Notes under the pieces: generated by a model
Told to the model about the DNA's origin: nothing
What the model saw: the letters and a program-made list of their open reading frames with translations, nothing else
Database searches by the model: none
Shown here: piece by piece, positions 46,188-62,766 of the stretch
Layout: each line of letters begins with the position of its first letter
Numbering within the stretch: position 1 is the first letter of the stretch
Assembly: GCF_000877395.1 (NCBI RefSeq)
Contig: NZ_JYFE01000046.1
Location: forward strand, 1-64,000
Length of the DNA stretch: 64,000 bases
Reading direction: 5' to 3'
Origin: Jannaschia aquimarina
Lineage (GTDB): Bacteria > Pseudomonadota > Alphaproteobacteria > Rhodobacterales > Rhodobacteraceae
Program-made: the position numbers and the translations under genes

Positions 46188-46313
46188 TCAGTCCAAGCGA
46201 ACCGAGTCGCCCGTCCGCTCGCCCTCGGTATAGGGGACGACATCGTTGAGCACCCACCACGCTCCGACCGACAGCACGGCCGTCAGCACGATCCCCAACC
46301 CGATTGCCTTCAT
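46188..46313 (-). CDS. Small (41-residue) single-pass membrane protein at the end of the formate dehydrogenase operon
   Basis: The ATG at 46313 overlaps the TGA of the WD40-cytochrome c gene by 4 nt (ATGA), so it is translationally coupled. The protein begins MKAIGLGIVLTAVLSVGAWW, one transmembrane helix, followed by VLNDVVPYTEGERTGDSVRLD, a short polar tail. It is shorter than usual gene-calling limits. Small single-helix subunits are common in respiratory complexes, so an accessory subunit of the formate dehydrogenase membrane part is a reasonable guess. No named family is recognised. Confidence 0.7.
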   Translation of the reverse strand: MKAIGLGIVLTAVLSVGAWWVLNDVVPYTEGERTGDSVRLD

Positions 46314-47572
46314 TTCGTGGTCTCCGTGGCGTCCCTGAGAAATGCGATGAGGTCTGCCCTATCTTCCGGCCGGGCAATGACCTGCATCGGCATCTTCGTA
46401 CCCGGCACATAGTGATCCGGGCCCTGGTCGAACAGCGCATCGATCGTCCGGTCGGTCCAGACGATGTCGCCCCGGCTAAGGCGTTCGGAATAGGGATAGC
46501 CTTCGAGGGTGCCCGACCGGCGGCCGAAGAGGCCCGCGAGGCTTGGCCCGGCACGGCGCGACGGCCCCGGGGACAGCGCGTGGCAGATGGAGCATTTCCG
46601 CATGAACTGCCGCTCGCCATTCGACATCTCGGCGGGCGGGCGCAGGAACTGCTGCTCTCCAGCGTCGATAGGCTGCACATCACCGTCGAGGGCGAAGCCG
46701 TGGATCGCCTGGTCCAACCCGCCGGCCCAGAGCGTCGCGCCGTCCGCCGAGAAGGCGAGCGCCCAGACCGGGCCGCTCTTCATCGCGCGGAAGTCGCGCG
46801 CCAGTGACCAGTCTGCGGTGTTAAGCACCATGATCCAGCCATCGCCATCGCCGACCGCAAGCAAACCATGCCGAGGCTCATGCGCCATCGACAGGATCGG
46901 CCGCCGGTCCAGCGTGTAATCCCTGAGGCTGTCGCCGGTCAGGGGATCCACGATCCGGGTCACGCCATCCACGGCACCGTAGGCCAGCCATCCGTCGCCC
47001 AGCACCATCCTGTTGATGCCGAACCCATGGCGAACGATGGGACGGGACGTGCCGGAAGCGACGTCCCATAGCCGGATCGACCCGTCGGAGGAGGCGGACC
47101 AGAGGCGACCGGACGGACCGAGAACGACTGCGTTCACCCCCGCCTCATGTCCGGCAAGCTGGATCGCCTTGCCGCCGTCGAGGGGCCAGAGCGCGATCGT
47201 CCCATCCCAACTGGCGCTGATCACGTGATCGCCGCTGGCCGCCAGGTCAGAGATCTTGCCGGCGTGCCGTCCAAGCTCGACCGGCGCGGCGTCGGACCCG
47301 GACCAGAGCAGGACGCGAAAGTCATCGCCTGCGGAGACGAGCGCACCGTCCGGCAGCGGCAGGATCGCGGTCACGGCGGCCTGATGCCCCTCCAACCACG
47401 CCGGAACCCCCGCGGAGGACCACAACCCGACGGAGTTGTCGAAACTGGCCGAAACCACACGCCCCTGCTCGGTGACCGCGAGATCCATGATCGGCCCGCC
47501 ATGTCCGTCGAGCCGACCCTGCGCCCCGGCCGCGCCTGCCCAGAGAGCCAGAAGCCCGGCGAGGACGCGCAT
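46310..47572 (-). CDS. WD40-repeat beta-propeller fused to cytochrome c
   Basis: A 420-residue periplasmic protein: signal peptide (1-17, AAGAQG), then about seven WD40-like repeats (residues about 20-310; for example GRLWSASSDGSIRLWDVASG and VISASWDGTIALWPLDGG), then a class I cytochrome c domain with heme motif CSICH (C327, C330, H331) and a likely distal Met in PGTKMPM (M394). The start shares one base with the stop of the fdh cytochrome b gene (TGATG). Combining a propeller with a monoheme cytochrome in a formate dehydrogenase operon suggests an electron acceptor or assembly platform for the dehydrogenase (inference). Confidence 0.85.
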   Translation of the reverse strand: MRVLAGLLALWAGAAGAQGRLDGHGGPIMDLAVTEQGRVVSASFDNSVGLWSSAGVPAWLEGHQAAVTAILPLPDGALVSAGDDFRVLLWSGSDAAPVELGRHAGKISDLAASGDHVISASWDGTIALWPLDGGKAIQLAGHEAGVNAVVLGPSGRLWSASSDGSIRLWDVASGTSRPIVRHGFGINRMVLGDGWLAYGAVDGVTRIVDPLTGDSLRDYTLDRRPILSMAHEPRHGLLAVGDGDGWIMVLNTADWSLARDFRAMKSGPVWALAFSADGATLWAGGLDQAIHGFALDGDVQPIDAGEQQFLRPPAEMSNGERQFMRKCSICHALSPGPSRRAGPSLAGLFGRRSGTLEGYPYSERLSRGDIVWTDRTIDALFDQGPDHYVPGTKMPMQVIARPEDRADLIAFLRDATETTK

Positions 47573-48810
47573 CACTCCGCCGGCGTGGCGGATCCGGGGG
47601 CGCGCCGTTCGGGCGCCTCTCCCTTCTGGCGCAACTCCTCCAGCCAGAGCGCGTGGTGCTGCTTGGCCCAGCGTTCGTCCACCCGTCCGCTGGTCATCGC
47701 CTGATGCGCACCCTGCATGCCGATCGACCCGATATAGATATGTGCCAGCGCGATCGCCATCAGCACGAAGGAGACGATGGCGTGCCACGCCTGCGCCAGC
47801 TGCATTTCCTCCTGCGGGGACAGGGCTTCCGGCAGAGGAGCCATGCCCATCAGGCCGGGCAGCCCGAGGGCGTTGAGCTTTTCGAAGGTCACCGCGAAGA
47901 GGGAGAACTGGAACGGGAAGAGGAGCGACAGGCCGGAGACGGACAGCGAGCCCCCGAGAAGGATCACCGACCAGAAGATCAGCTTCTGACCGAAATTGAA
48001 CTTCTTGGCGGGCGGATGCTTGGAGCCGACGATCCCGCCTGCCTGCTTGATCCAGACCCAGTCCGTGCGGTTGGGGATGTTGTGCCAGACCCACAGGAAG
48101 AATACCGCGACCAAGGCCGCCATGAATGGCCAGGCCACGTTGTTGTGAACCCATTTCGAAACGACCAGAATGCTCGCATTCGCTTCCGCACCGAAAAGCG
48201 GGATCAGGACGGTCCGGCCGAACAGGCTGGCGAGTCCGGTCAAGCCCAACGCGATGAAGCTGATGGCGAGGACCCAATGGGCCGTCCGCTCCCAGAAGCG
48301 AAAGCGCAGGACGGTCCGGCCGATCGGTCCGCCCTCGATCGGGATGCGTCCGCGCAACAGCAGGAACAGCGCCAGCGCACCGATCGTGCCTGCCAGAAGC
48401 CATCCGCCATATGTGCGCAGCGGGCCGTCGCGGAACTGGTACCAACGCATCCCGCCATCCTGCACGAGGACCTTGGCCACATCGCCCCCTGAGGACACGC
48501 TGACGTTCGGCGCATCGTCATAGCGAAGCGCGCGCCAGAGATCGGCATCCGAGGCGCCGCCCAGTGTCCCGAGCTGGGCCGCGATCCCGGCGGCGCTGTC
48601 GGGATCGCCTGTCGCGGCTCGGCGGGCGCTGTCGTCGACGGGCAGACCCTGTTGACGACGCAGAATGTCCTCGAGCGTCTGAGCGCCCCCAGTCGCGGAG
48701 CGGTCGGGGACGACATTCACGGCATCGTCGGGGGGACGGACGTCCTGTGCTGCCGCCGGCACCGCGAAGACACCGGCGAGGACGAGGAGAAAGGCGAGGA
48801 TCGATCTCAT
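47572..48810 (-). CDS. fdhC: Formate dehydrogenase gamma subunit (cytochrome b556 type)
   Basis: A 412-residue membrane subunit that passes electrons from the Fe-S subunit to quinone or to a periplasmic acceptor. It has a signal peptide (1-21), a periplasmic N-terminal extension of about 120 residues, and four transmembrane segments with heme-ligand histidines (FWERTAHWVLAISFIALGLTG, WVHNNVAWPFMAALVAVFFLWVWHN, LSVSGLSLLFPFQF, WHAIVSFVLMAIALAHIYIG). Typical family closing motif is GSIGMQGAHQAMTSGRVDERWAKQHH. The start has AAGGA upstream. It is separated from fdhB by a secreted protein gene on the opposite strand. Confidence 0.92.
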   Translation of the reverse strand: MRSILAFLLVLAGVFAVPAAAQDVRPPDDAVNVVPDRSATGGAQTLEDILRRQQGLPVDDSARRAATGDPDSAAGIAAQLGTLGGASDADLWRALRYDDAPNVSVSSGGDVAKVLVQDGGMRWYQFRDGPLRTYGGWLLAGTIGALALFLLLRGRIPIEGGPIGRTVLRFRFWERTAHWVLAISFIALGLTGLASLFGRTVLIPLFGAEANASILVVSKWVHNNVAWPFMAALVAVFFLWVWHNIPNRTDWVWIKQAGGIVGSKHPPAKKFNFGQKLIFWSVILLGGSLSVSGLSLLFPFQFSLFAVTFEKLNALGLPGLMGMAPLPEALSPQEEMQLAQAWHAIVSFVLMAIALAHIYIGSIGMQGAHQAMTSGRVDERWAKQHHALWLEELRQKGEAPERRAPGSATPAE

Positions 48811-49653: not shown

Positions 49654-50247
49654 TCAGCCGCCCTTCTGCTCATAGGCCGTGCCCCAGCCCCAAGCTCCCG
49701 AGCCAAAGCCGCGGGCGACCACGCGCTCGCGGTAGATGCCCGAGACCACGTCGCCGTCGCCGGCAAGCAGGGCCTTGGTCGAGCACATCTCGGCGCAGAT
49801 GGGCAACTTGCCCTCGGCGATCCGGTTGCGCCCGTACTTGGCGAACTCGGCCTGCGAGTGGGTCTCTTCGGGGCCACCGGCGCAGAAAGTGCACTTGTCC
49901 ATCTTGCCGCGCGACCCGAAGTTGCCGGCCTGCGGATATTGCGGCGCGCCGAACGGGCACGCGTAGAAGCAATATCCGCAGCCGATGCACAGATCCTTCG
50001 AGTGCAGGACGACGCCTTCCTCGTTCTGGTAGAAGCAATCCACCGGGCAGACGGCCATGCAGGGCGCGTCCGAACAATGCATGCACGCCACCGAGATCGA
50101 GCGCTCGCCGGGCGTCCCATCGGCAATCGTCACGACACGCCGACGGTTGATGCCCCACGGCACCTCATGCTCGTTCTTGCAGGCGGTCACGCAGGCGTTG
50201 CATTCGATGCAGCGCTCGGCGTCGCAGAGGAACTTCGCTCTTGCCAT
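49654..50247 (-). CDS. fdhB: Formate dehydrogenase iron-sulfur subunit (FDH3 beta type)
   Basis: A 197-residue ferredoxin-like subunit linking the catalytic subunit to cytochrome b. Four [4Fe-4S] sites can be read: CIECNACVTACKNEH, CMHCSDAPCMAVCP, CIGCGYCFYACPFG, and the split motif CTFC...CAEMC. There is no signal peptide, so it is expected to cross the membrane folded with the TAT-bearing catalytic subunit. There is no C-terminal transmembrane anchor as in E. coli FdnH; the protein ends GWGTAYEQKGG. The gene starts 12 bp after fdhA. Confidence 0.95.
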   Translation of the reverse strand: MARAKFLCDAERCIECNACVTACKNEHEVPWGINRRRVVTIADGTPGERSISVACMHCSDAPCMAVCPVDCFYQNEEGVVLHSKDLCIGCGYCFYACPFGAPQYPQAGNFGSRGKMDKCTFCAGGPEETHSQAEFAKYGRNRIAEGKLPICAEMCSTKALLAGDGDVVSGIYRERVVARGFGSGAWGWGTAYEQKGG

Positions 50248-50259
50248 TGTCTCTCTCCC

Positions 50260-53200
50260 TTACGCCGCGGTGATCTTGCAGAGGGTGGCCTTGGTCTCCT
50301 GCATCTGGGTGACCGAGTCGTAGCCGTAGGTCTGGGCGGTGTTGGTGGATTCGCCCAGCACGTAAGGATCGGCACCATCGGGATACTTGTCCCTGAGGTC
50401 CTGACCCTGGAAGTGGCCGCCGAAATGGAATGGCATGAAGGCCACGCCCGCCCCGACGCGCTCGGTCAGCATGGCCATGACCTTGACCTTGCCGCCCTCC
50501 GGTCCTTCGACCCAGACCTGTTCGCCGTCGCGGATGCCCAGATTGTTGGCGTCGCGCGGATTGATCTCGACGAACATGTCCTGCTGCAACTCTGCCAGCC
50601 ACGGATTCGACCGCGTCTCGTCGCCGCCGCCCTCGTACTCGACCAGACGACCGGAGGTCAGGATGATCGGGTAGTCACTGGCGAAATCCTTCTCCTGGAT
50701 CGACGCGTACATCGTCGGCAGCCGATAGAACTTGCGGTCTTCGTAGGTCGGGTAGTCGGCCACCAGGTCACGCCGGTTGGTATAAAGCGGCTCGCGGTGG
50801 ACGGGGACCGGATCGGGGAATGTCCAGACGACGGCGCGGGCCTTGGCATTGCCGAAGGGCGCGCAGCCATGCTTGATCGCGACCCGTTGGATACCGCCCG
50901 AGAGATCGGTCTTCCAGTTCACCGCGCTCGCCCGTTCGTTGAAGTCGGACGGGAAGGGCGACATGGACTGTTCGCCAACCTCTTCGTTCGAGGCTTGATC
51001 ACCGCTGGCATCGGTCGTGCCGTCGGGTGTCGCGCCCTCCTGCAGATTGTCGAGCACGATGCCGGCTACCCGGGCGATCGAGCCCTTTTCCTCGTCGGTC
51101 AGATCGGCGTCCCAGCCAAGGTCCACCAGCATCTGGTAGGTGAACTCGGGATAGCCGTCCTGGATCTCGGACCCGACACTGGCGACACCATCCGCAAGAA
51201 GGTTGTCCCCGTCCCGTTCCACGCCGAAGCGGGCGCGGAAGGTCAGGCCGCCTTCGGCGACAGGCTTGGACATATCATAGAGGTTCGGCGTGCCGGGATG
51301 CTTCATCTCGGGCGTTCCCCAGCAGGGCCAGGGCATCCCGTAATAGTCGCCATCGGCGGGGCCACCATTCGCCCGCAGCGTCGTGCGATCGAAGGTGTGC
51401 TGGTTGGCCATGTGCAGCTTGATGCGCTCTGGACTCTGGCCGGTATAGCCGACCGTCCACATCCCGGCATTGAACTCGCGCGTGACCGACTCGATCACCG
51501 GGGTGATGCCGTCCTCTTCCATCTCGATGTTGCGGAAGAAGCGGTCGGCCCATCCGAACTTGTTGGCGAAAAGGCCGATGATCTCGTGATCGGTCTTGCT
51601 TTCGAAGAGCGGAGCGACGACCTGGTCGCGCCACTGGATCGAGCGGTTGGACGCCGTCACCGAGCCGCGGGTCTCGAACTGCGTGGCGGCGGGCAGCAGG
51701 TACACCCCGTCCGTCCGGTCATGCAGCACGGCGGAGACGGTGGGATACGGGTCGATCACGACCAGCATGTCCAGCTTCTCCATCGCCGTCTTCATCTCGG
51801 TCATGCGCGTCTGCGAGTTCGGCGCATGCCCCCACAACACCATCGCGCGCACATTGGCGGGCTGGTCCATGTTGGCCGGATCCTCCAGCACGCCGTCGAT
51901 CCAGCGGCTGACAGGAATGCCGGTCAGGTTCATCAGCGGCTTCTCTTCGCCGTCGACCTCCGCCGTGGCGAACTGGCTCTTCAGCCAATCCAGATCCTCG
52001 CCCCAGACGCGAGACCAGTGACCCCAAGCGCCCTCGGACAAACCATAATAGCCGGGCAAGGTATGAGACAGCACACCGAGGTCGGTCGCGCCCTGCACAT
52101 TGTCGTGGCCGCGGAAGATGTTCGTCCCGCCGCCTTCCGTGCCCATGTTCCCCAGCGCGAGCTGAAGGACACAGTAGGCGCGGGTATTGTTGTTGCCGTT
52201 GGTGTGCTGGGTGCCCCCCATGCACCAGATGACGGTGCCCGGACGGTTGTTGGCGAGTGTGCGGGCCACGCGCTTGAGCTGCGAGCCGGGAGTGCCGGTG
52301 ACACGCTCCACCTCTTCGGGCGTCCAGCGTGCCACCTCCTCCCGGATCTGATCCATGCCCCAGACGCGGGTGCGGATGAATTCCTTGTCCTCCCACCCAT
52401 TCTCGAAGATGTGCCAGAGGATACCCCAGACCAGCGCGACGTCGGTGCCGGGCCGGAAGCGGACATACTCATCCGCGTGGGCCGCGGTGCGGGTAAAGCG
52501 CGGGTCGCAGACGATCAGAGGCGCGTTGTTCTCTTCCTTGGCCTTCAGCACGTGCAGCAGCGAGACGGGGTGGGCCTCGGCGGGGTTGCCGCCGATGATG
52601 AAGATCGCTCGGCTCTTGTGGATGTCGTTGAAGCTGTTCGTCATGGCGCCGTAGCCCCACGTGTTCGCCACGCCGGCGACGGTGGTGGAGTGGCAAATGC
52701 GCGCCTGGTGGTCGACGTTGTTCGTGCCCCAATAGGCCGCGAACTTGCGGAAGAGATAAGCCTGCTCGTTATTGTGTTTGGCCGAGCCCAGCCAATAGAC
52801 GCTGTCAGGACCGCTCTCGTCGCGGATCTGCATCATGCCGCCGCCGATCTCGTCGATCGCCTGCTCCCAGGAGATGCGCTTCCACTCGCCACCCTCCTTC
52901 TTCATCGGATATTTCAGCCGCCGCTCGCCATGGGCGTGCTCACGGACCGAAGCGCCCTTGGCGCAGTGCGCGCCTAGGTTGAAGGGGCTGTCCCAGCCGG
53001 GTTCCTGTCCGACCCAGACGCCGTCGGAAACTTCGGCGACGACGGTACAGCCGACAGAACAATGGGTGCAGACCGATTTGACGGTTTCGACCGCACCGGC
53101 CGCAGCGGTGGCGGCGGTTGCGGGGCGGACCGTCCCGCCGGTGGCGCCGATCGCGGCGAGGCCGCCGATCGCGAGGCCCGATCCGCGCAGGAACGCGCGG

Positions 53201-53286
53201 CGGTCGACCGAGGCGCCTGCGGCGCGGCTCAGGATCTTGGGGCGGTGGGTCTGACGGGCGGTTCCGTCTGTCTTCTTCCTCAGCAT
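50260..53286 (-). CDS. fdhA: Formate dehydrogenase catalytic subunit (periplasmic, Cys-type, Mo/W-bisPGD)
   Basis: Oxidises formate to CO2 at a molybdo- or tungsto-bis-pyranopterin guanine dinucleotide. The 1008 residues carry a TAT signal (SVDRRAFLRGSG, R29-R30), a [4Fe-4S] motif C73-x2-C76-x3-C80-x27-C108 with K110, and active-site C198-H199 (DHQARICHSTTV). The codon is an ordinary Cys, so no selenocysteine is needed. The molybdopterin oxidoreductase fold follows (IFIIGGNPAEAHP, MGGTQHTNGNNNTRAYC), and the C-terminal dinucleotide-binding domain contains LTSGRLVEYEGGG. Residue counts and the TAT signal indicate the FDH-N/FDH-H-like periplasmic class. The nearby tungstate importer suggests tungsten as the metal (inference). 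Confidence 0.96.
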   Translation of the reverse strand: MLRKKTDGTARQTHRPKILSRAAGASVDRRAFLRGSGLAIGGLAAIGATGGTVRPATAATAAAGAVETVKSVCTHCSVGCTVVAEVSDGVWVGQEPGWDSPFNLGAHCAKGASVREHAHGERRLKYPMKKEGGEWKRISWEQAIDEIGGGMMQIRDESGPDSVYWLGSAKHNNEQAYLFRKFAAYWGTNNVDHQARICHSTTVAGVANTWGYGAMTNSFNDIHKSRAIFIIGGNPAEAHPVSLLHVLKAKEENNAPLIVCDPRFTRTAAHADEYVRFRPGTDVALVWGILWHIFENGWEDKEFIRTRVWGMDQIREEVARWTPEEVERVTGTPGSQLKRVARTLANNRPGTVIWCMGGTQHTNGNNNTRAYCVLQLALGNMGTEGGGTNIFRGHDNVQGATDLGVLSHTLPGYYGLSEGAWGHWSRVWGEDLDWLKSQFATAEVDGEEKPLMNLTGIPVSRWIDGVLEDPANMDQPANVRAMVLWGHAPNSQTRMTEMKTAMEKLDMLVVIDPYPTVSAVLHDRTDGVYLLPAATQFETRGSVTASNRSIQWRDQVVAPLFESKTDHEIIGLFANKFGWADRFFRNIEMEEDGITPVIESVTREFNAGMWTVGYTGQSPERIKLHMANQHTFDRTTLRANGGPADGDYYGMPWPCWGTPEMKHPGTPNLYDMSKPVAEGGLTFRARFGVERDGDNLLADGVASVGSEIQDGYPEFTYQMLVDLGWDADLTDEEKGSIARVAGIVLDNLQEGATPDGTTDASGDQASNEEVGEQSMSPFPSDFNERASAVNWKTDLSGGIQRVAIKHGCAPFGNAKARAVVWTFPDPVPVHREPLYTNRRDLVADYPTYEDRKFYRLPTMYASIQEKDFASDYPIILTSGRLVEYEGGGDETRSNPWLAELQQDMFVEINPRDANNLGIRDGEQVWVEGPEGGKVKVMAMLTERVGAGVAFMPFHFGGHFQGQDLRDKYPDGADPYVLGESTNTAQTYGYDSVTQMQETKATLCKITAA

Positions 53287-55430: not shown

Positions 55431-57377
55431 ATGACACGTCAGATCGTGCTCTGCGATTGCGCCGGCAGTCAGGACATCGACGCAGATGGTCTTTCGAGCG
55501 CGACCGGGCTGTCGGCCTCCAAGGCGTGCTCGCATCTTTGCACGCGTCAGATCGACGTGGCCGCCAAGGCGTTGAAGGCCGGGGACGCTTTGATCGCCTG
55601 CACGCAAGAGGCGGATACCTTTACCGCACTGGCCGAAGACCTGGGCCTGCCCGCCCCCGCGCTCGTCGATATCAGAGATCGCGCCGGTTGGACGGATGAC
55701 GGGCGTCCGACGCTGCCCAAGATGGCGGCGCTCGTGGCGGAGGCACAGCTTCCAGCCGCGCCCCACCCCACATTGGACGTGATCTCGGAAGGACTGTGCC
55801 TGATCGCGGGCCCTGCGGATGTCGCCTTCGAGTCGGCCGACCGGCTGAAGGATCATCTGTCGGTCACCGTGCTCATTGGACCGGACGATGCGGCCGACCC
55901 GCCGATAGATCGCGGCTGGGACCTCGTGAAGGGGACGATCCGCAATGCGACCGGCTCCTTGGGACGGTTCAGTCTACGGCTCGATCGGTTGCAGCAACTG
56001 GATCCGGCGGGACGGGACCGGACCTTCACATCCCCGCGGGACGGCGCCGAATCCGCCTGCGATATCCTGGTCGACTTGCGCGGCGAACCACCCCTCTTTC
56101 CCGCGCCCGAAAAGCGCGATGGGTACCTGCGCGCCGACCCCGGACATCCGCAGGCCGTCGCGGACGTCATTCTGGCTGCCTCGCACCTGTCGGGGACCTT
56201 CGAGAAGACGCTGCACGTGCGGACCGAGCCGCTGCTTTGCGCGCATTCGCGGGCCGAGCAGGTCGGCTGCACACGGTGCCTGGACCTCTGTCCGACCGGG
56301 GCGATCACTCCGAACGGAGAGCATATCTCCGTCGATCCCCTGATCTGCGCGGGCTGTGGGGCATGTTCCGCCGCCTGTCCGTCAGGGGCGATCGCGCTGG
56401 ATGCGCCACCGGTCGATGCGACGATGCGGCGGGTGCAGACACTTGCGACCGCCTACCGGATGGCAGGCGGCGACGCGCCGCGATTGCTGGTCGTCGACCC
56501 TCACGGCACCGAGATGATCGCATTGGCGGCACGCTATGGGCGTGGCCTGCCATCCGACGTCATTCCCATCGAGGTGGACGCCTTGAATGGGTTCGGGCAT
56601 GCCGAGGCGCTTGCGGGTCTGGCTGCGGGTTTTGGCGCGGTGATCTGGTTGCCTGCCCCGCGCACCGACAGGGCCGCGCTGGATGCGCAGGTGGCGCTGA
56701 CGCGCGCGCTTGCGCCGGATGCGTCGGCTCTCATCTTGGATGTGGGCGATCCCGATGCGATGGCGGACGCCCTGCGCAGCGATGCGCCTCCCGCGATCCA
56801 AAGCCCGATCCGTCCGATGGGCACTCGCCGCCAGATTGCCCGTCAGGCCGCCACGGCACTGAACGGCGGTGACGCGACCCTGCCTCTGCCCGACGGGGCG
56901 CCCTACGGTGCTGTTCTCGTCGACACCGAGGCCTGCACGCTCTGTCTGAGTTGCGTGTCGCTCTGCCCATCGGGAGCGCTCGGCGACAATCCGGACCGGC
57001 CGCAGCTCCGGTTTCAGGAAGATGCCTGCCTGCAATGCGGGCTCTGCGCCAACATCTGTCCCGAGGATGCGATCACGCTGGATCCGCGGATGGATACCAG
57101 TCCCGCCGCTCTCTCGCAGCGCGTGCTTCACGAGGAAGAACCGGCGCTCTGTATCGAATGCGGGGCTGCGTTCGGGGTCGCATCGACCATCGAGCGGATC
57201 GTGGCGAAGCTGGAAGGCCATTCCATGTTCGGCGGCGACCGCGCGCGCCTGATCCGGATGTGCAACGATTGCCGGATCGCCGCGCAGGTTCATTCCGCCG
57301 ACAATCCCTTCGCAAGCAATCCGCGCCCCCGCCCCCGCACCACCGCGGACGAGTTGTCGAAGCGGCGGGATCACTGA
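55431..57377 (+). CDS. Polyferredoxin-like 4Fe-4S protein of the formate dehydrogenase region
   Basis: A 648-residue cytosolic protein with at least four ferredoxin-type cluster motifs: CTRCLDLCPTGAI (from 280), CAGCGACSAACPSGAI (about 306), CTLCLSCVSLCPSGAL (about 502) and CLQCGLCANICPEDAI (about 533). Further cysteines lie near the N-terminus (8, 10, 33, 37) and in CIECG...CNDC near the C-terminus. The region between the two cluster pairs (about 330-480) resembles the HdrA/MvhD-like delta domains of electron-transfer proteins. GGGAGGAGGG precedes the ATG at 55431. It is divergent from the fdh operon. Its role is likely electron delivery or Fe-S/cofactor assembly (inference). Confidence 0.85.
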   Translation: MTRQIVLCDCAGSQDIDADGLSSATGLSASKACSHLCTRQIDVAAKALKAGDALIACTQEADTFTALAEDLGLPAPALVDIRDRAGWTDDGRPTLPKMAALVAEAQLPAAPHPTLDVISEGLCLIAGPADVAFESADRLKDHLSVTVLIGPDDAADPPIDRGWDLVKGTIRNATGSLGRFSLRLDRLQQLDPAGRDRTFTSPRDGAESACDILVDLRGEPPLFPAPEKRDGYLRADPGHPQAVADVILAASHLSGTFEKTLHVRTEPLLCAHSRAEQVGCTRCLDLCPTGAITPNGEHISVDPLICAGCGACSAACPSGAIALDAPPVDATMRRVQTLATAYRMAGGDAPRLLVVDPHGTEMIALAARYGRGLPSDVIPIEVDALNGFGHAEALAGLAAGFGAVIWLPAPRTDRAALDAQVALTRALAPDASALILDVGDPDAMADALRSDAPPAIQSPIRPMGTRRQIARQAATALNGGDATLPLPDGAPYGAVLVDTEACTLCLSCVSLCPSGALGDNPDRPQLRFQEDACLQCGLCANICPEDAITLDPRMDTSPAALSQRVLHEEEPALCIECGAAFGVASTIERIVAKLEGHSMFGGDRARLIRMCNDCRIAAQVHSADNPFASNPRPRPRTTADELSKRRDH

Positions 57378-58102
57378 TGCTGCAACGGAGCGCCCAAATC
57401 CGCCGCCGGAAGATCGGCGACATAGGCCAAGATCGCGTCGAGATCTTCGAGCGTCATGTCGACGGGCGCGATGGGGGACGGACGATCGATCGGAAAGGGC
57501 GGCGTGACGTCCGCGATCTGCGTGAAGGCGGGATGCGGATTGAGGACATAGAAAGTCTCGAAGCGCTGCGGCCAGTCATCCAGCGTGCGAAGCACCATGA
57601 AGGACGGCGAGGATCCGATCGCGTTCAGGCGACCGGCTTCCTCGACCGCGTGGCAGCGGGCGCAATGAACGCGGGAGATATCCAGGCCGAGAAGGGCATC
57701 GCCCTCGAAGCCACGATCGGCCGGACCCGCGCTGATCGTGGGCGGGCCCGTAAAGAGCGGATCGCCGCCAGGTGCATAGCTCGTCACCGTTTTGCGGCCC
57801 GTCTCGGACAGAAGCCAGTCCACGAAGGCCGGTCCGTCAGGGTGATCTTCCACGGACCTGATGTGCCAGACCTGCGTCTGGCCCTCGAAGACGGCCTGCC
57901 CCGTCTCTCCGAGGACCAGATCGGCCGGCGCGTTCCCATTCACCTGTTCGATCCGGACCCCGTACTTGAGAGAATAGCGCGGGGCGACGTGATCGATCAG
58001 CCCGGTCTCGGCAAGCTGGTCCGGTACGGCCACCCGCAAGGGTTCTGCCAAGGCCGGCATGGCGATGCAGAAAGCGGCGATGGCAGAGAGACATCGAAGC
58101 AT
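57371..58102 (-). CDS. Fusion of a reduced TupA-like binding domain and cytochrome c
   Basis: A 243-residue periplasmic protein. After a signal peptide (1-19) residues 21-118 align by eye with TupA of this window at both ends: LRVAVPDQLAETGLIDHVAP versus MRLAVTTSFHNSGLSDVLLP, and FVDWLLSETGRKTVTSYAPGGDPLF versus LEDWLTSATAQALIDDYRIAGEQLF. The whole central lobe of TupA is absent. A monoheme cytochrome c domain follows with CARCH (C147, C150, H151) and a possible Met ligand at M216. Convergent with the polyferredoxin gene (7-bp overlap). Its function is unknown; it may be an electron carrier for formate dehydrogenase. Confidence 0.75.
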   Translation of the reverse strand: MLRCLSAIAAFCIAMPALAEPLRVAVPDQLAETGLIDHVAPRYSLKYGVRIEQVNGNAPADLVLGETGQAVFEGQTQVWHIRSVEDHPDGPAFVDWLLSETGRKTVTSYAPGGDPLFTGPPTISAGPADRGFEGDALLGLDISRVHCARCHAVEEAGRLNAIGSSPSFMVLRTLDDWPQRFETFYVLNPHPAFTQIADVTPPFPIDRPSPIAPVDMTLEDLDAILAYVADLPAADLGAPLQHQ

Positions 58103-58157
58103 GCCGACAGGGTAGCCGTTCCACTCATCTCTTCAACCTTAAGCTGAAGGCAGATCC

Positions 58158-58349
58158 ATGAGCGACGATTTCAACATGTCGATGCGCAAGTTCCTCAAGC
58201 AGGTCGGCGTTACCTCGCAGCAGGCCATCGAAGAGGCGATGCGTGAGAACGATACCGCCGGCAAGAGCTTTACCGCCCGGGCCGTCATCACGATCGATGG
58301 CCTCGATCTTGAGCACGTCGTCGAAGGCAAGATCGAAGGCGCGCAGTGA
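58158..58349 (+). CDS. DUF6494 small protein
   Basis: A 63-residue cytosolic protein (SDDFNMSMRKFLKQVGVTSQ then QAIEEAMRE and FTARAVITIDGLDLEHVVEG). It matches a small alphaproteobacterial family annotated as DUF6494, from memory. AAGG lies before the ATG. Its TGA overlaps the GTG start of the Mrp gene (GTGA), so it heads a four-gene overlapping operon. Confidence 0.8.
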   Translation: MSDDFNMSMRKFLKQVGVTSQQAIEEAMRENDTAGKSFTARAVITIDGLDLEHVVEGKIEGAQ

Positions 58350-59401
58350 TCGACCGTGAGACCGCCCTTGCGGCCCTGAAAGCCATCGAGACACCGGCAG
58401 GGGGGGACGTCGTATCGGCGGGCGTCGTTCGGGCGTTGACAGTGTCGGACGGCGCCGTCCGTTTCGTCATGGAGATCGACCCGGCGCAAGCACAGGCCTT
58501 CGAGCCGATCAAGACCGCTGCCGAAGCCGCGCTGAAAGCCGCGGGCGCTGACGCTGTCTCGATCGTCTTGACCGGCCACACCGAAAAGGCCCCGCCCGAC
58601 GTTCGGATGGGCAAAAAATCGGAGCCTAAGGGACCAGAGCCCGTGCCGGGCATCGCGCGACTGATCGCCGTCGCCAGCGGGAAGGGCGGTGTCGGAAAGT
58701 CCACGGTCTCTTCGAACCTCGCCTGCGCGCTTGCGCAAAAGGGCCTGCGGGTCGGATTGCTGGACGCTGATGTCTACGGCCCTTCACAACCCCGTATGCT
58801 GGGCATCTCGGGCCGTCCAAGCAGCCCCGATGGCAAGACCATCCTCCCGATGCGCAACCACGGCGTCACCGCCATGTCGCTGGGCCTGATGACAAATGAC
58901 GATCAGGCAGTGGTTTGGCGCGGTCCCATGTTGATGGGCGCGTTGCAGCAGATGCTGTTCCAGGTGCAATGGGGGGCCCTGGACGTCCTGTTGGTCGATC
59001 TGCCGCCGGGAACGGGGGACGTGCAGATGACGCTGGCCCAGAAAGCACGCGTCGATGGGGCCATCGTCGTTTCCACGCCGCAGGATGTCGCGCTGCTCGA
59101 CGCCCGCAAGGGGATCGACATGTTCCAGCAACTCAACGTCCCGCTCCTCGGGCTGATCGAGAACATGAGCACGCACATCTGCTCCAAGTGCGGGCACGAG
59201 GATCCCGTTTTCGGTCATGGAGGGGTTGCGGCGGAGGCGCGAAAGCTGGGTGTCCCGCTGCTCGCCGAGATCCCTCTGCATATCGATATCCGGCTCGCCG
59301 CCGATGGAGGGGCGCCGATCGTCGTCAGCAAGCCCGAAAGCGCACAGGCCCGCGCCTTCCATCAGGTTGCGGATGCCCTGACGGAGAGCGTTCTGGCATG
59401 A
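58346..59401 (+). CDS. Mrp/ApbC-family Fe-S cluster carrier ATPase
   Basis: A P-loop ATPase that binds and transfers Fe-S clusters. The 351 residues have an N-terminal MIP18/DUF59-like domain (1-80), the deviant Walker A ASGKGGVGKSTVSSN (about 110-124), LLDADVYGPSQPRMLG, the switch DLPPGTGDVQMTLAQ, and the dimer-bridging CxxC pair C279/C282 (HICSKCGHED). The N-terminal domain lacks the usual DPE/DPEL motif (reads IETPAGGDVVSAGVV). Start GTG at 58346. Presence here suggests it supplies clusters to the Fe-S-rich formate dehydrogenase proteins (inference). Confidence 0.93.
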   Translation: MIDRETALAALKAIETPAGGDVVSAGVVRALTVSDGAVRFVMEIDPAQAQAFEPIKTAAEAALKAAGADAVSIVLTGHTEKAPPDVRMGKKSEPKGPEPVPGIARLIAVASGKGGVGKSTVSSNLACALAQKGLRVGLLDADVYGPSQPRMLGISGRPSSPDGKTILPMRNHGVTAMSLGLMTNDDQAVVWRGPMLMGALQQMLFQVQWGALDVLLVDLPPGTGDVQMTLAQKARVDGAIVVSTPQDVALLDARKGIDMFQQLNVPLLGLIENMSTHICSKCGHEDPVFGHGGVAAEARKLGVPLLAEIPLHIDIRLAADGGAPIVVSKPESAQARAFHQVADALTESVLA

Positions 59402-60075
59402 ACCTGCCGCCTCTGTTCCAAGGCGTCGAGGTGGAACATGACCCGCTCGCATACCTGCGTCAGCGGGCATCGGAGGGATGCGATGCGGGGTTGCTGGCAT
59501 ATCGTCTGACGGCACAGGATCTGTCGGCGGCTCTCGTCCTTGCGCCGGAAGTGCCGCTTTCCCAAGCGGTGGCGATGCTGCCGGTAGCGTCCGTTGGATT
59601 GCAGAATGCACTCGGCGCGATCGGTCCGCCGGAGGTTGCGGTTCATTTGGGCTGGGACGGCACGATCTACCTGAACGACGGAATATGCGGACACATTGCT
59701 ATCACGGCAGATACCGACGTTCCGGAGGCGACACCGAATTGGTTGATCGTCAGCATAACGCTCGTCTTGCAGCCGAAGGAGGGGGAACAATCCCCGCCCA
59801 CCGAAACCTCACTCGCAGCGGAGGGTTGCGGTGAAATCGACCCCGAACAGCTGTTGGAAGCGTGGGCTCGCCACACTCTCGTTTGGATCGACCGATGGGA
59901 GTCCGAAGGGCCGCGACCCGTCCATGCGGAGTGGTCCGGGCTACTCCGCGGCTTGCATGAAACGACGCCGGCGGGCACCTTTATCGGAACGGATGAGGCG
60001 TTTGGAATGCTGCTGCGTGATGCGGAGGGCCAGACGACCCTGGTCCCTCTGACAACCCATCTGGAGCGGCCATGA
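59398..60075 (+). CDS. Biotin/lipoate protein ligase-like protein (BPL_LplA_LipB_2)
   Basis: A 225-residue protein similar to the BPL_LplA_LipB_2 family: ALVLAPEVPLSQAVAMLPV, GLQNALGAIGPPEVAVHLGWDGTIYLNDG, and a C-terminal block with WARHTLVWIDRWESEGPRPVHAEWSGLLRG. It keeps the ligase core pattern (NALGAI...PPEVAVHLGWDG...G-x-C-G) but its substrate is unknown; the nearby Fe-S and cofactor genes hint at a modification step other than biotin attachment. The ATG at 59398 overlaps the Mrp stop by 4 nt. Confidence 0.82.
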   Translation: MNLPPLFQGVEVEHDPLAYLRQRASEGCDAGLLAYRLTAQDLSAALVLAPEVPLSQAVAMLPVASVGLQNALGAIGPPEVAVHLGWDGTIYLNDGICGHIAITADTDVPEATPNWLIVSITLVLQPKEGEQSPPTETSLAAEGCGEIDPEQLLEAWARHTLVWIDRWESEGPRPVHAEWSGLLRGLHETTPAGTFIGTDEAFGMLLRDAEGQTTLVPLTTHLERP

Positions 60076-60551
60076 GACTTGCCCGCGCGATCCACTTCGA
60101 TGAGAGCGACCAGCGCGTTTTCGCCAGCCCGGCACGAACCGGCGAATGGTGCATCTCGGGCGGGTTCGAATTCTCCGATTGGACAGAGGCCGATCTCACG
60201 GGCAAGCCGAGGCAGGCATTCGCGAATGGATGGTTTGGGCTGGAAACCTTTGGCCGCGTCACCTTCGTCGCCGTGACTGAAGCCACGCAGGTCGAGATCG
60301 ACGCGCTGACCGATGCTTTGGCCGCACATTTCGTCACCTATTATGGCGCACCTTCCATCGAGGCCGCCCGTCCGGTCGCCATGGAGGAGGTGCGCCACAT
60401 GGCCGAGCTCTGTGACGATCATGCGCCGAATACCCTTCTGACAGTTGCCAGAGAGCTGACACCGTCGGGCGTGCGCGAAGCGTTTCGAGTCATCGAACCG
60501 CGCGAAGCCGGGCTCGACCAGTTCGCGATCCACGGCTCGCCCGACGGGTGA
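60072..60551 (+). CDS. DUF6505 protein
   Basis: A 159-residue cytosolic protein (MRLARAIHFDESDQRVF at the start, then GEWCISGGFEFSDWTEADLTGKPRQAFANGWFGLETFGR). It matches the Rhodobacteraceae DUF6505 family, recalled as a steady neighbour of the ligase-like gene. Its ATG overlaps the upstream stop (ATGA). Last gene of the DUF6494-mrp-ligase-DUF6505 operon; the convergent tupA begins 3 bp after its stop. Function unknown. Confidence 0.8.
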   Translation: MRLARAIHFDESDQRVFASPARTGEWCISGGFEFSDWTEADLTGKPRQAFANGWFGLETFGRVTFVAVTEATQVEIDALTDALAAHFVTYYGAPSIEAARPVAMEEVRHMAELCDDHAPNTLLTVARELTPSGVREAFRVIEPREAGLDQFAIHGSPDG

Positions 60552-60554
60552 CGC

Positions 60555-61358
60555 CTATTCGTCGCGCGGCTGGGCGTTGAAGACGAAGAGCTGTTCGCCC
60601 GCGATCCTGTAATCGTCGATCAGCGCCTGCGCGGTGGCCGATGTCAGCCAGTCTTCGAGCGTTGCGGCCGCATCCGCCTTCACGTGCGCGTGACGAGCAG
60701 CGCTCACGGGAAGGTAGGCATATTGATTGAACAGGACAGGATCACCTGAATAGAGCAACTCCATCCCGTCCTTATTGCCGAAGTTCAGCCAGGATGCGCG
60801 ATCCGACAGGATATAGGCGCCCAATCCCGCGGCCGTGTTGAGGGCCGCGCCCATACCGGCGCCGACCTCACGATACCAACCCTCATCGATCGACGCATCG
60901 GATGCGGCCCAGAGGGACAGCTCCATCTTGTGGGTTCCGCTATCGTCGCCTCGGCTCACGAAGGGGACGCGCGTGCTGGCGATCCGTTCCAGCGCGACGA
61001 CGGCACTTTCAGATGCGGAGATGCCGGCGGGATCCTCGCGCGGCCCGACCAAGACGAAGTCGTTGTACATTATCTCTCGCCGGTGGGTTCCGAAACCGTT
61101 GGCGACGAAGGCGTCCTCGGCTGCCCGAGAATGAACGAGGATCGCATCGACATCGCCGGCCTCGCCAAGGCGGATCGCCTGCCCGGTCCCGACAACCAAG
61201 AGCTGAACCTCGAGACCCGTATCCCGCTCTATCGCAGGCAAGAGCACATCAGAGAGGCCGGAATTATGGAATGAGGTCGTGACCGCAAGCCGCATCGTCT
61301 CGGCTTGAGCCACAGCTCCGACACATGCGAACACCATCGCGACGAGGAGTCTGATCAT
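60555..61358 (-). CDS. tupA: Tungstate-binding protein TupA-like (ABC transporter)
   Basis: Periplasmic binding protein of a tungstate (possibly molybdate) importer. The 267-residue protein has a signal peptide (1-19) and the TupA signature LAVTTSFHNSGLSDVLLP, GTGQAIRLGEAGDVDAILVHSRAAEDAFV, and SRGDDSGTHKMELSLW with conserved oxyanion-contact residues. The start overlaps the tupC stop by 4 nt. TupA selects tungstate over molybdate in characterised systems, which fits a tungsten formate dehydrogenase. Confidence 0.9.
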   Translation of the reverse strand: MIRLLVAMVFACVGAVAQAETMRLAVTTSFHNSGLSDVLLPAIERDTGLEVQLLVVGTGQAIRLGEAGDVDAILVHSRAAEDAFVANGFGTHRREIMYNDFVLVGPREDPAGISASESAVVALERIASTRVPFVSRGDDSGTHKMELSLWAASDASIDEGWYREVGAGMGAALNTAAGLGAYILSDRASWLNFGNKDGMELLYSGDPVLFNQYAYLPVSAARHAHVKADAAATLEDWLTSATAQALIDDYRIAGEQLFVFNAQPRDE

Positions 61359-62068
61359 TCGACGATATCTCCATTCAGGAAAGCGCGTGCCGATGGGGTT
61401 TGTGGATCCGTCAGGAAATTGGCTGCAGGCCCACTCTCATGCAAGCGGCCCCGGTGCAAAAACCATATCTCATCCGCAAGCCGGCGGGCCTGCCCCATAT
61501 CGTGGGTCGACATCACGATCCGTGTTCCCGAAGCCGCGGCTTCCAGGAGCAGGGCTTCGATCTCTCGGATCGCGGATCCATCGAGAGAGGCACAGGGCTC
61601 ATCAAGGAAGACGAGGTCTGGCTCGATGACGAGGGCGCGGGCGATCGCGAGCTTCTGGGACTCGCCTCCGGAAAGGTCCGTTCCCGGACGATCTGCCATC
61701 TCGTCGAGACCGACCCGCCTGACCCAGGCCATTGCCCGTTCGCGCGCAACGCCCCGCGCCACGCCGCGAAGTCTGAGTGGGAAGGCCACATTCGCGAGCA
61801 CCGAGCGATGCAGGACCACCGGGCGTTGAAATACGAACGCCTGACGTTTGCGCGCCTCATCCATGGGACAGGCCCATTCGATCCCTCCCTCGGAAAGGCG
61901 GGCAATGCCATGCAGCATCCTGAGAAGGCTGGTCTTTCCCGAGCCGTTTGGACCGATCACGATCGTGATCCCCATCCCTTCCAGTCTTACGTCGATGGGT
62001 CCCGCGAGGATCTTTCCACGGCGTCGCGTGACCGCCCCTCGAACATTGAGCGGAAGAAGTGTCACCAA
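61355..62068 (-). CDS. tupC: ABC transporter ATP-binding protein (TupC-like)
   Basis: A 237-residue ATPase with Walker A IGPNGSGKTSL (38-48), the Q-loop in QAFVFQRPVVL, signature DLSGGESQKLAIARAL, Walker B LVFLDEP and the H-loop in MSTHDMGQARRLADEIWFLHRGRL. It powers tungstate uptake with TupA and TupB. Its start overlaps the tupB stop by 7 nt and its stop overlaps the tupA start by 4 nt. The gene order tupB-tupC-tupA is one operon. Confidence 0.92.
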   Translation of the reverse strand: MVTLLPLNVRGAVTRRRGKILAGPIDVRLEGMGITIVIGPNGSGKTSLLRMLHGIARLSEGGIEWACPMDEARKRQAFVFQRPVVLHRSVLANVAFPLRLRGVARGVARERAMAWVRRVGLDEMADRPGTDLSGGESQKLAIARALVIEPDLVFLDEPCASLDGSAIREIEALLLEAAASGTRIVMSTHDMGQARRLADEIWFLHRGRLHESGPAANFLTDPQTPSARAFLNGDIVE

Positions 62069-62766
62069 CGGCCCTCTACCTCTGTTCGGCCAAGGCGATG
62101 GATTGCCAGATTAACTGCAACCGCAAGTCCTATGAGGACGAAGCCGAGACCGAGTGCGAGGGCGAAGTCTCCGCGCCCCGTTTCAAGCGCGATCGCTGTC
62201 GTCAGGACACGGGTCGCGTTATCGATGTTGCCACCGACGATCATGATCGCCCCCACCTCGCCGATCGCCCGGCCGAAGCCGGCCAGTGCGGCTGTCAGGA
62301 GCGCCCTTCGAGCGTCCCAAAGCAAGGCCCGAATCCGCTGCCCTTGCGTCGCGTTCATCGAGATCAGCAGATCGTGATACTGCGCCCAGAGATCTCGCAA
62401 CGATTGATGTGCGATCGACGCGATCAACGGGACGATGATGATGACCTGGGCGATGATCATCGCAGTCGGCGTGAACAGCAGACCCAGCACACCGAACGGT
62501 CCGCTTCGCGATAGAAGGACGTAGACGATCAGGCCGACGACAACTGGCGGCAGGCCCATCAGGGCATTCAGCACCGCAATGACGAGCCGACGCAGTCTGA
62601 ACCGCCTGACCGAGAGGAGTGCGGCGACCGGGAACGCAATAAAGCATGCAATCACGAGCGCTGTGAGAGTCACCTGCAACGATCGGAGGGTGATCTCGAC
62701 GAGTTCCGGGTCGAGCGTGATCACAAGCCAGCCGGCTTGAACCAGTCCGTCCCACAAGTCGTTCAT
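62062..62766 (-). CDS. tupB: ABC transporter permease (TupB-like)
   Basis: A 234-residue membrane subunit with about five to six hydrophobic segments (LTALVIACFIAFPVAALLSV, LIVYVLLSRSGPFGVLGLLF, IIAQVIIIVPLIASIAHQSL, ADFALALGLGFVLIGLAVAVNLAIH, the last read as GDFALALG...). The cytoplasmic EAA-like loop AALAGFGRAIGEVGAIMIVGGNI docks the ATPase. First gene of the tupBCA operon. Confidence 0.9.
   Translation of the reverse strand: MNDLWDGLVQAGWLVITLDPELVEITLRSLQVTLTALVIACFIAFPVAALLSVRRFRLRRLVIAVLNALMGLPPVVVGLIVYVLLSRSGPFGVLGLLFTPTAMIIAQVIIIVPLIASIAHQSLRDLWAQYHDLLISMNATQGQRIRALLWDARRALLTAALAGFGRAIGEVGAIMIVGGNIDNATRVLTTAIALETGRGDFALALGLGFVLIGLAVAVNLAIHRLGRTEVEGRW

Follow-up and report, generated by a model that had tools for sequence, protein, structure and literature searches.

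A TupA-type lobe joined to a one-heme cytochrome c beside the formate dehydrogenase genes of Jannaschia aquimarina and other Rhodobacteraceae

Binding-protein folds are usually regarded as two-lobed. For the tungstate-binding protein TupA, whose structures include 3muq, 5my5, 3lr1 and 3kn3, the available part of PMC5517513 assigns residues 2-76 and 201-251 of 5my5 to lobe A and residues 91-200 to lobe B, and lists among the ligands a TTTS motif and a His of lobe A together with R118, T124 and D170. Halves of the ribose-binding protein were stable and folded as single lobes and did not bind (PMC10601554, available part). Binding-protein-like components also occur next to cytochromes: methanol dehydrogenase operons encode MxaJ or XoxJ beside the cytochrome MxaG or XoxG, and in methanol-lanthanum medium the loss of xoxJ or xoxG equalled the loss of xoxF1 and xoxF2 (PMC7391723, available part). 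Here we describe a gene in a 64,000-nucleotide stretch of Jannaschia aquimarina DNA (NCBI RefSeq assembly GCF_000877395.1, contig NZ_JYFE01000046.1, positions 1 to 64,000; hereafter the window), whose product joins one lobe of the TupA type to a cytochrome c in a cluster of formate dehydrogenase (FDH) and tungstate uptake genes. As with MxaJ/XoxJ and MxaG/XoxG, a binding-protein-fold part is combined with a cytochrome c that would be dedicated to one periplasmic dehydrogenase; those are two proteins, whereas here a lone lobe related to TupA sits on the same polypeptide as the cytochrome, and the enzyme is a formate dehydrogenase. The likeness is offered as a functional parallel and precedent, not as sequence kinship.

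The two-domain architecture, an exported TupA lobe A followed by a one-heme cytochrome c, was well supported. An earlier note on this DNA had proposed that the N-terminal part matches both ends of the TupA encoded about 2.5 kb away, lacks its central lobe and is followed by a CxxCH cytochrome. The distance was 2.45 kb, the single CxxCH lay at residues 147-151, and hhalign, profile search and structure superposition all bore out the two matched ends and the missing centre. Family profiles were built from relatives alone, and a hhalign run with an alignment containing the window TupA was set aside as circular. When a profile of 69 relatives was compared with 35 TupA sequences, the N-terminal end aligned with a probability of 95.4 (E 1.7e-8, signal-peptide columns included) and the C-terminal end by itself, without the signal peptide, with a probability of 96.8 (E 3e-10). 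A profile of residues 20-123 (no signal peptide) searched against 177,635 PDB sequences gave nine matches at E<=10, headed by 3muq (1.6e-6), 7rdr (2.5e-6), 5my5 (3.8e-5) and 3lr1 (4.8e-4) and continuing with 3kn3 (1.3e-3), 3cvg (0.0054), 9xor, 4g23 and 8j0s, showing that the N-terminal half scores beyond chance. The 'circular tendon repeat protein' 7rdr reached its score overall, yet no single stretch of it passed alone. At E<=10 in its own genome, the same profile retrieved the fusion protein and, as the sole other match, the window TupA (E 0.006). Run over 20 additional loci, the full-length profile of the family matched eight open reading frames (ORFs) at E<=1, and these were the eight TupA ORFs of those loci, each matched at both ends in the correct order (best E 1.7e-12, single ends to an independent E-value of 0.53). 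The two-ended pattern, counted by eye, was seen in TupA-sized frames in at least 30 of 337 genomes of the class. The single sequence had a weak match to NCBIfam TupA (NF041772) in its N-terminal part (E 5e-4, 19.5 bits, where the cut-off is 400), and the window's own TupA reached merely 183.7 bits against the same cut-off.

The AlphaFold2 model had a predicted local distance difference test score (pLDDT) of about 97 across residues 21-120. Foldseek with the lobe model returned nothing at E<=0.001 (best 3muq, 3.7e-3), and the structural claim therefore relies on VIA-align 2 run over Foldseek's candidates. In this comparison residues 19-122 superposed on chain 2-251 of the TupA 5my5 with a Z of 14.6 and a root-mean-square deviation of 1.8 Å over 104 aligned residues; crystal TupA was the best of the 50 rows listed, most of which were named binding proteins. 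The binding-protein fold was present, as the earlier note had expected, and the fit to 5my5 with the published lobe ranges indicates that the N-terminal domain is lobe A without lobe B. The type II binding-protein lobe A fold of TupA is thus retained, whereas the two lobes with a cleft are absent; lobe B, which in TupA lies between the two lobe-A parts, would on our reading of the alignments span roughly residues 77-204 in the window TupA. The end-to-end order and some core positions are common to both proteins (such as G34 and P41; W96, G113 and F117 of the fusion, equivalent to W237, G254 and F258 of the window TupA). Pfam, run on the 69 relatives singly, found cytochrome families plus two single weak hits, and apart from these two hits no family for the lobe.

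The oxyanion ligands of TupA were not retained in the fusion protein. Mapping of the published ligands to window TupA numbers was our own, with D186 the least sure; T27, T28, S29, H76, R136, T142 and D186 were each present in 35/35 sequences of the TupA alignment, and the place of the TTTS motif reads V/S-TTS in window-type TupA. In the fusion family, position 27 was Pro in 68/69, position 28 was mixed and position 29 was Ser in just 5/69. No His was present at 64-67, the expected place of the lobe-A His76, in any of the 69 relatives, and R118, T124 and D170 (window R136, T142 and D186) belong to the excised lobe B. None of the TupA ligands was conserved among the 69 relatives. Because the ligands are replaced or deleted, the lobe is unlikely to bind oxyanions as TupA does, and the metal or oxyanion sensing that the earlier note had suggested was not supported. 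New invariants were found in the lobe: R42 and K46 in the first helix (both 69/69) and W79 (68/69). In TupA the site of residue 42 is variable and that of residue 46 is Asp in 22/35, and the R42/K46 region is a plausible new contact surface.

The heme domain scored below the Pfam Cytochrom_C cut-off (18.2 bits against 21.3), and PF00034 was matched at E<=0.1 by 52 of the 69 relatives. Foldseek gave no match for the heme-domain model at E<=0.001. Class I cytochromes c with a His/Met heme (PF00034; outgroup L149, L150, L154, L157 and L159) have in common with the family the CxxCH, a PH motif and a C-terminal helix, but their Met at H+3 is replaced in the family, by Phe in the window family. The usual Met place, residue 193, was Phe in 69/69 of the alignment, and Met at H+3 (PHxxM) was found in 5/5 outgroup cytochromes against 0/39 family members (L044 read by eye). 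Beyond CxxCH, fused and lobe-less members shared I-x-S-T/S-P-S-F, an Arg and PH. His190 was the sole invariant second His in the 69-row alignment. The heme may be either bis-His or without a strong sixth ligand, the bis-His idea coming from conservation alone.

The cytochrome was found in 93 of 248 same-family genomes (one per genus), with the lobe in 91 of the 93 (89 judged by match span, the other two, G168 and G244, from the loci themselves). The 93 do not include the weak matches in G030, G048, G050, G094, G122, G144 and G179; six of these seven overlap a TupA gene at its 3' end, the exception being that in G050. The G050 match (C11:15006-15311, L046; E 1.4e-5, query 51-147) falls within a frame of 2135 residues, and that genome had no TupA match. 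An FdhA orthologue was present in 112 of the 248 genomes, and the cytochrome in 90/112 genomes with FdhA (88 with the lobe) against 3/136 without (both 90, cytochrome alone 3, FdhA alone 22, neither 133; Fisher p 5e-42, indicative since the genomes are related). The 112 exclude genomes with solely a 58-62% identical FdhA (G030, G035, G037, G066, G179 and G216). This second FdhA type, its identity measured against the window's, is alone in those six genomes, none of which has the cytochrome; both types are present in G006, G047, G071, G170 and G177. TupA accompanied the cytochrome in 92/93 genomes and FdhA in 111/112. In the class sample (FdhA threshold E<=1e-250), 14 genomes had the cytochrome (6 fused, 8 not; E<=1.3e-12), all within the 49/337 with FdhA (Fisher p 3e-13). 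Across 349 genomes of the phylum, strong heme-domain matches (E<=1e-24) were confined to the same class.

The arrangement next to fdh genes, whose conservation the earlier note had left to be checked, was conserved. A scan of one genome collection yielded 326 confirmed stretches encoding relatives, of which the best 80 include Roseovarius, Ruegeria, Phaeobacter, Tateyamaria and Roseibium. In 77/80 of these the fusion gene had mrp on one side and the 4Fe-4S gene on the other, and it lay on the strand opposite to both in 77/77; mrp was not found in two of the exceptions and the contig ended in the third. The fetched stretches contained fdhA in 71/80 and tupA in 35/80. A plasmid of Sulfitobacter sp. 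S190 (L204, 4195-13960) carries tup genes, much of the fdh accessory set and the fusion gene, and four more plasmid records (three Sagittula, one Tateyamaria) carry the fusion gene. In these records the five plasmid copies bear the label 'c-type cytochrome' or 'hypothetical protein'.

Other Alphaproteobacteria have the cytochrome without the lobe, and FdhA was present in all 12 genomes searched (those of 11 lobe-less members and G533). Six of the 11 lobe-less members in the tree lie in fdh/tup clusters and five away from those genes in the stretches read. L165 occupies the same site between mrp and the 4Fe-4S gene, L167 lies between mrp and tupA, L168 between tupA and the gene of a WD40-cytochrome, L171 near the 4Fe-4S gene, and L173 adjoins the WD40-cytochrome gene. 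In L203 (larger stretch L205, 8165-10840) the lobe-less gene stands directly before tupB, tupC and tupA, all four in one orientation, which suggests that the cytochrome is co-transcribed with the tungstate uptake genes. These six cytochromes have the same motifs and a Met-less heme domain (29-52% identical), come from genomes that have the same FdhA, and differ in having no TupA lobe; no family name was found for them. The tree comprised 44 heme domains with His/Met cytochromes as outgroup; near-copies, duplicate loci and the lobe-less copy of G004 were left out. Lobe-less members were basal, and the fused ones fell in a supported part (99/97) that also holds two lobe-less members (L052 and L165). 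A single fused clade was not rejected (approximately unbiased test, p 0.258), and the long branches of L174, L157, L173 and L201 leave parts of the tree unsure. On our reading, the fdh/tup neighbourhood first had a Met-less cytochrome, to which a piece of tupA was later joined, probably once; the lobe may since have disappeared again on more than one occasion. Some distant members retain longer loops between the lobe halves, one with a weak SBP_bac_11 match (8.7e-4).

The coordinates of the fusion gene, its parts and the surrounding genes are collected in Table 1.

Table 1. Features of the fusion gene and its cluster in the window.
Feature	Position	Strand	Basis or remark
Cytochrome b561-type subunit	47572-48807		After fdhB; Pfam Ni_hydr_CYTB 1.2e-21
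WD40-cytochrome	46310-47575	-	WD40 beta-propeller repeats (Pfam WD40 3.3e-28), then cytochrome c (Cytochrom_C 5.4e-9)
fdhB, iron-sulfur subunit	49654-50247		After fdhA
fdhA, formate dehydrogenase catalytic subunit	50260..53286	-	NCBIfam Fdh-alpha 8.1e-145, under curated cut-off
4Fe-4S protein, convergent neighbour	55431..57377	+	Pfam Fer4 families
Gene of fusion protein, 243 aa	57371..58102	-	Minus-strand ORF; relatives in 93/248 same-family genomes
Signal peptide, residues 1-19	58046..58102	-	Read by eye; helix 2-13 in model
N-terminal part of TupA-like lobe A, residues 20-65	57908..58045	-	hhalign E 1.7e-8; profile matches 3muq, 3lr1, 3kn3
C-terminal part of lobe A, residues 66-122	57737..57907	-	hhalign E 3e-10; 5my5, 3cvg; VIA-align 2
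Linker, residues 123-133	57704..57736	-	pLDDT ~58 (block 121-130); mean column identity 0.35 (121-133)
Cytochrome c domain, residues 134-243	57374..57703	-	Pfam Cytochrom_C 0.0067 at 146-231, under cut-off; model
CxxCH heme motif, residues 147-151	57650..57664	-	C147, C150, H151 each 69/69; only CxxCH
His190, candidate second heme ligand	57533..57535	-	H190 69/69
Small DUF6494 gene, divergent neighbour	58158..58349	+	Pfam 5.1e-29
mrp/ApbC-type iron-sulfur carrier NTPase	58346..59401	+	Pfam, NCBIfam
Lipoate/biotin ligase-like protein with DUF4444	59398-60075	+	Pfam
DUF6505 gene	60072-60551	+	Pfam
tupA, intact two-lobed tungstate-binding protein	60555..61358	-	NCBIfam TupA 4.1e-54, under curated cut-off
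tupC	61355-62068		Beside tupA; position and sequence
tupB	62062-62766		Beside tupC; NCBIfam TupB 1.3e-47, under curated cut-off

At its 3' end the fusion gene shares 7 bases with the convergent 4Fe-4S gene. Neither a promoter nor a terminator was found when 57000-58500 was scanned for them. FdhA has a twin-arginine-like start; encoded with it are FdhB, an iron-sulfur protein, and a subunit of the cytochrome b type. An FDH of such make-up works in the periplasm, and periplasmic catalysis is expected here because these three components are encoded. The WD40-cytochrome gene, directly after that of the cytochrome b subunit, has a signal-peptide-like start and is the second cytochrome gene of the cluster. 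DUF3305/DUF3306 and TorD genes are reported near fdh genes (PMC4464133) and tungsten-cofactor maturation has been described in another alphaproteobacterium (PMC13197769); the available parts of these two papers do not mention the fusion cytochrome. The DUF6494 and DUF6505 genes and the ligase-like gene with DUF4444 are little known, and a literature search pairing these names with formate dehydrogenase found no paper combining two terms. The earlier note knew of no description of this architecture, and no account of it was found in the literature searched, which leaves out most subscription papers.

We put the probability at roughly one half that the protein is an exported one-heme cytochrome c dedicated to the periplasmic FdhABC and carrying a remodelled, ligand-free TupA lobe A. 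Redox partner of FDH is the simplest role because an exported cytochrome follows the enzyme across genera, and for the heme part an electron carrier is most likely. The lobe would act as a protein-docking module, with the invariant basic Arg42 and Lys46 toward the partner, and would hold the cytochrome on FDH or on some other partner. As ligands the heme would have His151 and probably His190, unless one side is open; it would take electrons from the dehydrogenase complex or donate them to it, forming an optional branch alongside the route through cytochrome b and quinone. Several observations weigh against this reading. The cytochrome b subunit already provides FDH with a quinone exit. The heme part stands alone even within the family, in G054 and G004, and 22/112 FdhA genomes have no cytochrome. 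When 20 of those 22 loci were read (G122 and G236 left out), the 4Fe-4S gene adjoined mrp in 12, with an otherwise similar order, showing that the fdh cluster exists without the cytochrome; of the other eight, two had another order and six were cut or had no visible junction. As the co-occurrence is strong and 22 FdhA genomes lack the cytochrome, it is tied to this dehydrogenase yet optional. The fold of the heme domain resembles cytochromes c modestly (best Z 6.9, 7zs0, with cytochromes among the rows), and the fused member L201 has a Met at H+4, one residue beyond the usual place. The Met-bearing outgroup has the H190-equivalent His, so H190 may or may not be a ligand. A likeness to cytochrome c549/PsbV (E 0.57 and 0.76), which we take to be bis-His cytochromes, was gone once the heme motif was removed, with no cytochrome c among 17 rows. 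The mutual placement of lobe and heme domain is uncertain in the AlphaFold2 model (predicted template modelling score 0.57).

The lack of Met at H+3 in 39/39 family members, the family-wide I-x-S-T/S-P-S-F and PH motifs and the optional presence would also fit a heme-based sensor or protection factor, in which an open or weakly ligated heme binds O2, NO or the like or registers the redox state, with the lobe relaying the signal to FDH or a partner. We consider this unlikely, although worth keeping in view: the invariant His190 could occupy the heme site, the Pfam scan found no signalling domain in the fusion protein, and a periplasmic location would make any link to cytoplasmic maturation indirect. 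It is also distinctly unlikely that the lobe is a tolerated passenger of gene fusion and that the cytochrome works alone, as could be read from the lobe-less L052 and L165 inside the fused part of the tree, from the further one in G004 and from the greater variability of the lobe. Mean pairwise identity was 0.49 in the lobe against 0.62 in the heme domain, and the median ratio of nonsynonymous to synonymous substitution rates (dN/dS) was 0.46 against 0.35, the latter a weak comparison of 542 non-independent pairs with dS near saturation. However, the lobe has nine invariant residues across 50 sequences, the new R42 and K46 among its conserved positions, a confident model, and is kept in nearly all genomes with the cytochrome.

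Readings that tie the protein to tungstate fared worse. If the lobe docked TupB instead of TupA and the redox state of the heme gated tungstate uptake, the near-constant company of TupA and the lobe-less relative directly before tupBCA would be accounted for; TupA is, however, equally common with FdhA, tupA was in fewer than half of the fetched stretches, the shared invariants look structural, and the new R42 and K46 differ from TupA's residues, so that we hold this very improbable. An oxyanion-, metal- or formate-sensing electron carrier, the earlier note's proposal, draws on the TupA kinship and the place in the cluster and is to us just as improbable: the oxyanion ligands are either substituted or missing, and of the two ligand-enclosing lobes only one is left, grounds that bear on oxyanions and not on formate. 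More speculatively, a binding protein pared to one lobe might have become a redox-coupled docking arm, in which a Met-free heme senses redox state or a small gas while the lobe docks TupB or FDH in a redox-dependent way, tuning tungstate import or formate oxidation; we think this a long shot.

The dedicated FDH cytochrome that we favour would belong to a natural family, found in numerous marine bacteria, that retains one lobe of a metal-oxyanion binder, coupled to a heme beside FDH. This FDH is common in Rhodobacteraceae-type bacteria (112/248 genera) and is nearly always accompanied by tungstate uptake genes (111/112). The fusion protein is a candidate periplasmic redox partner for these formate dehydrogenases, open to test, and may offer a worked case of a transport receptor converted to another use.

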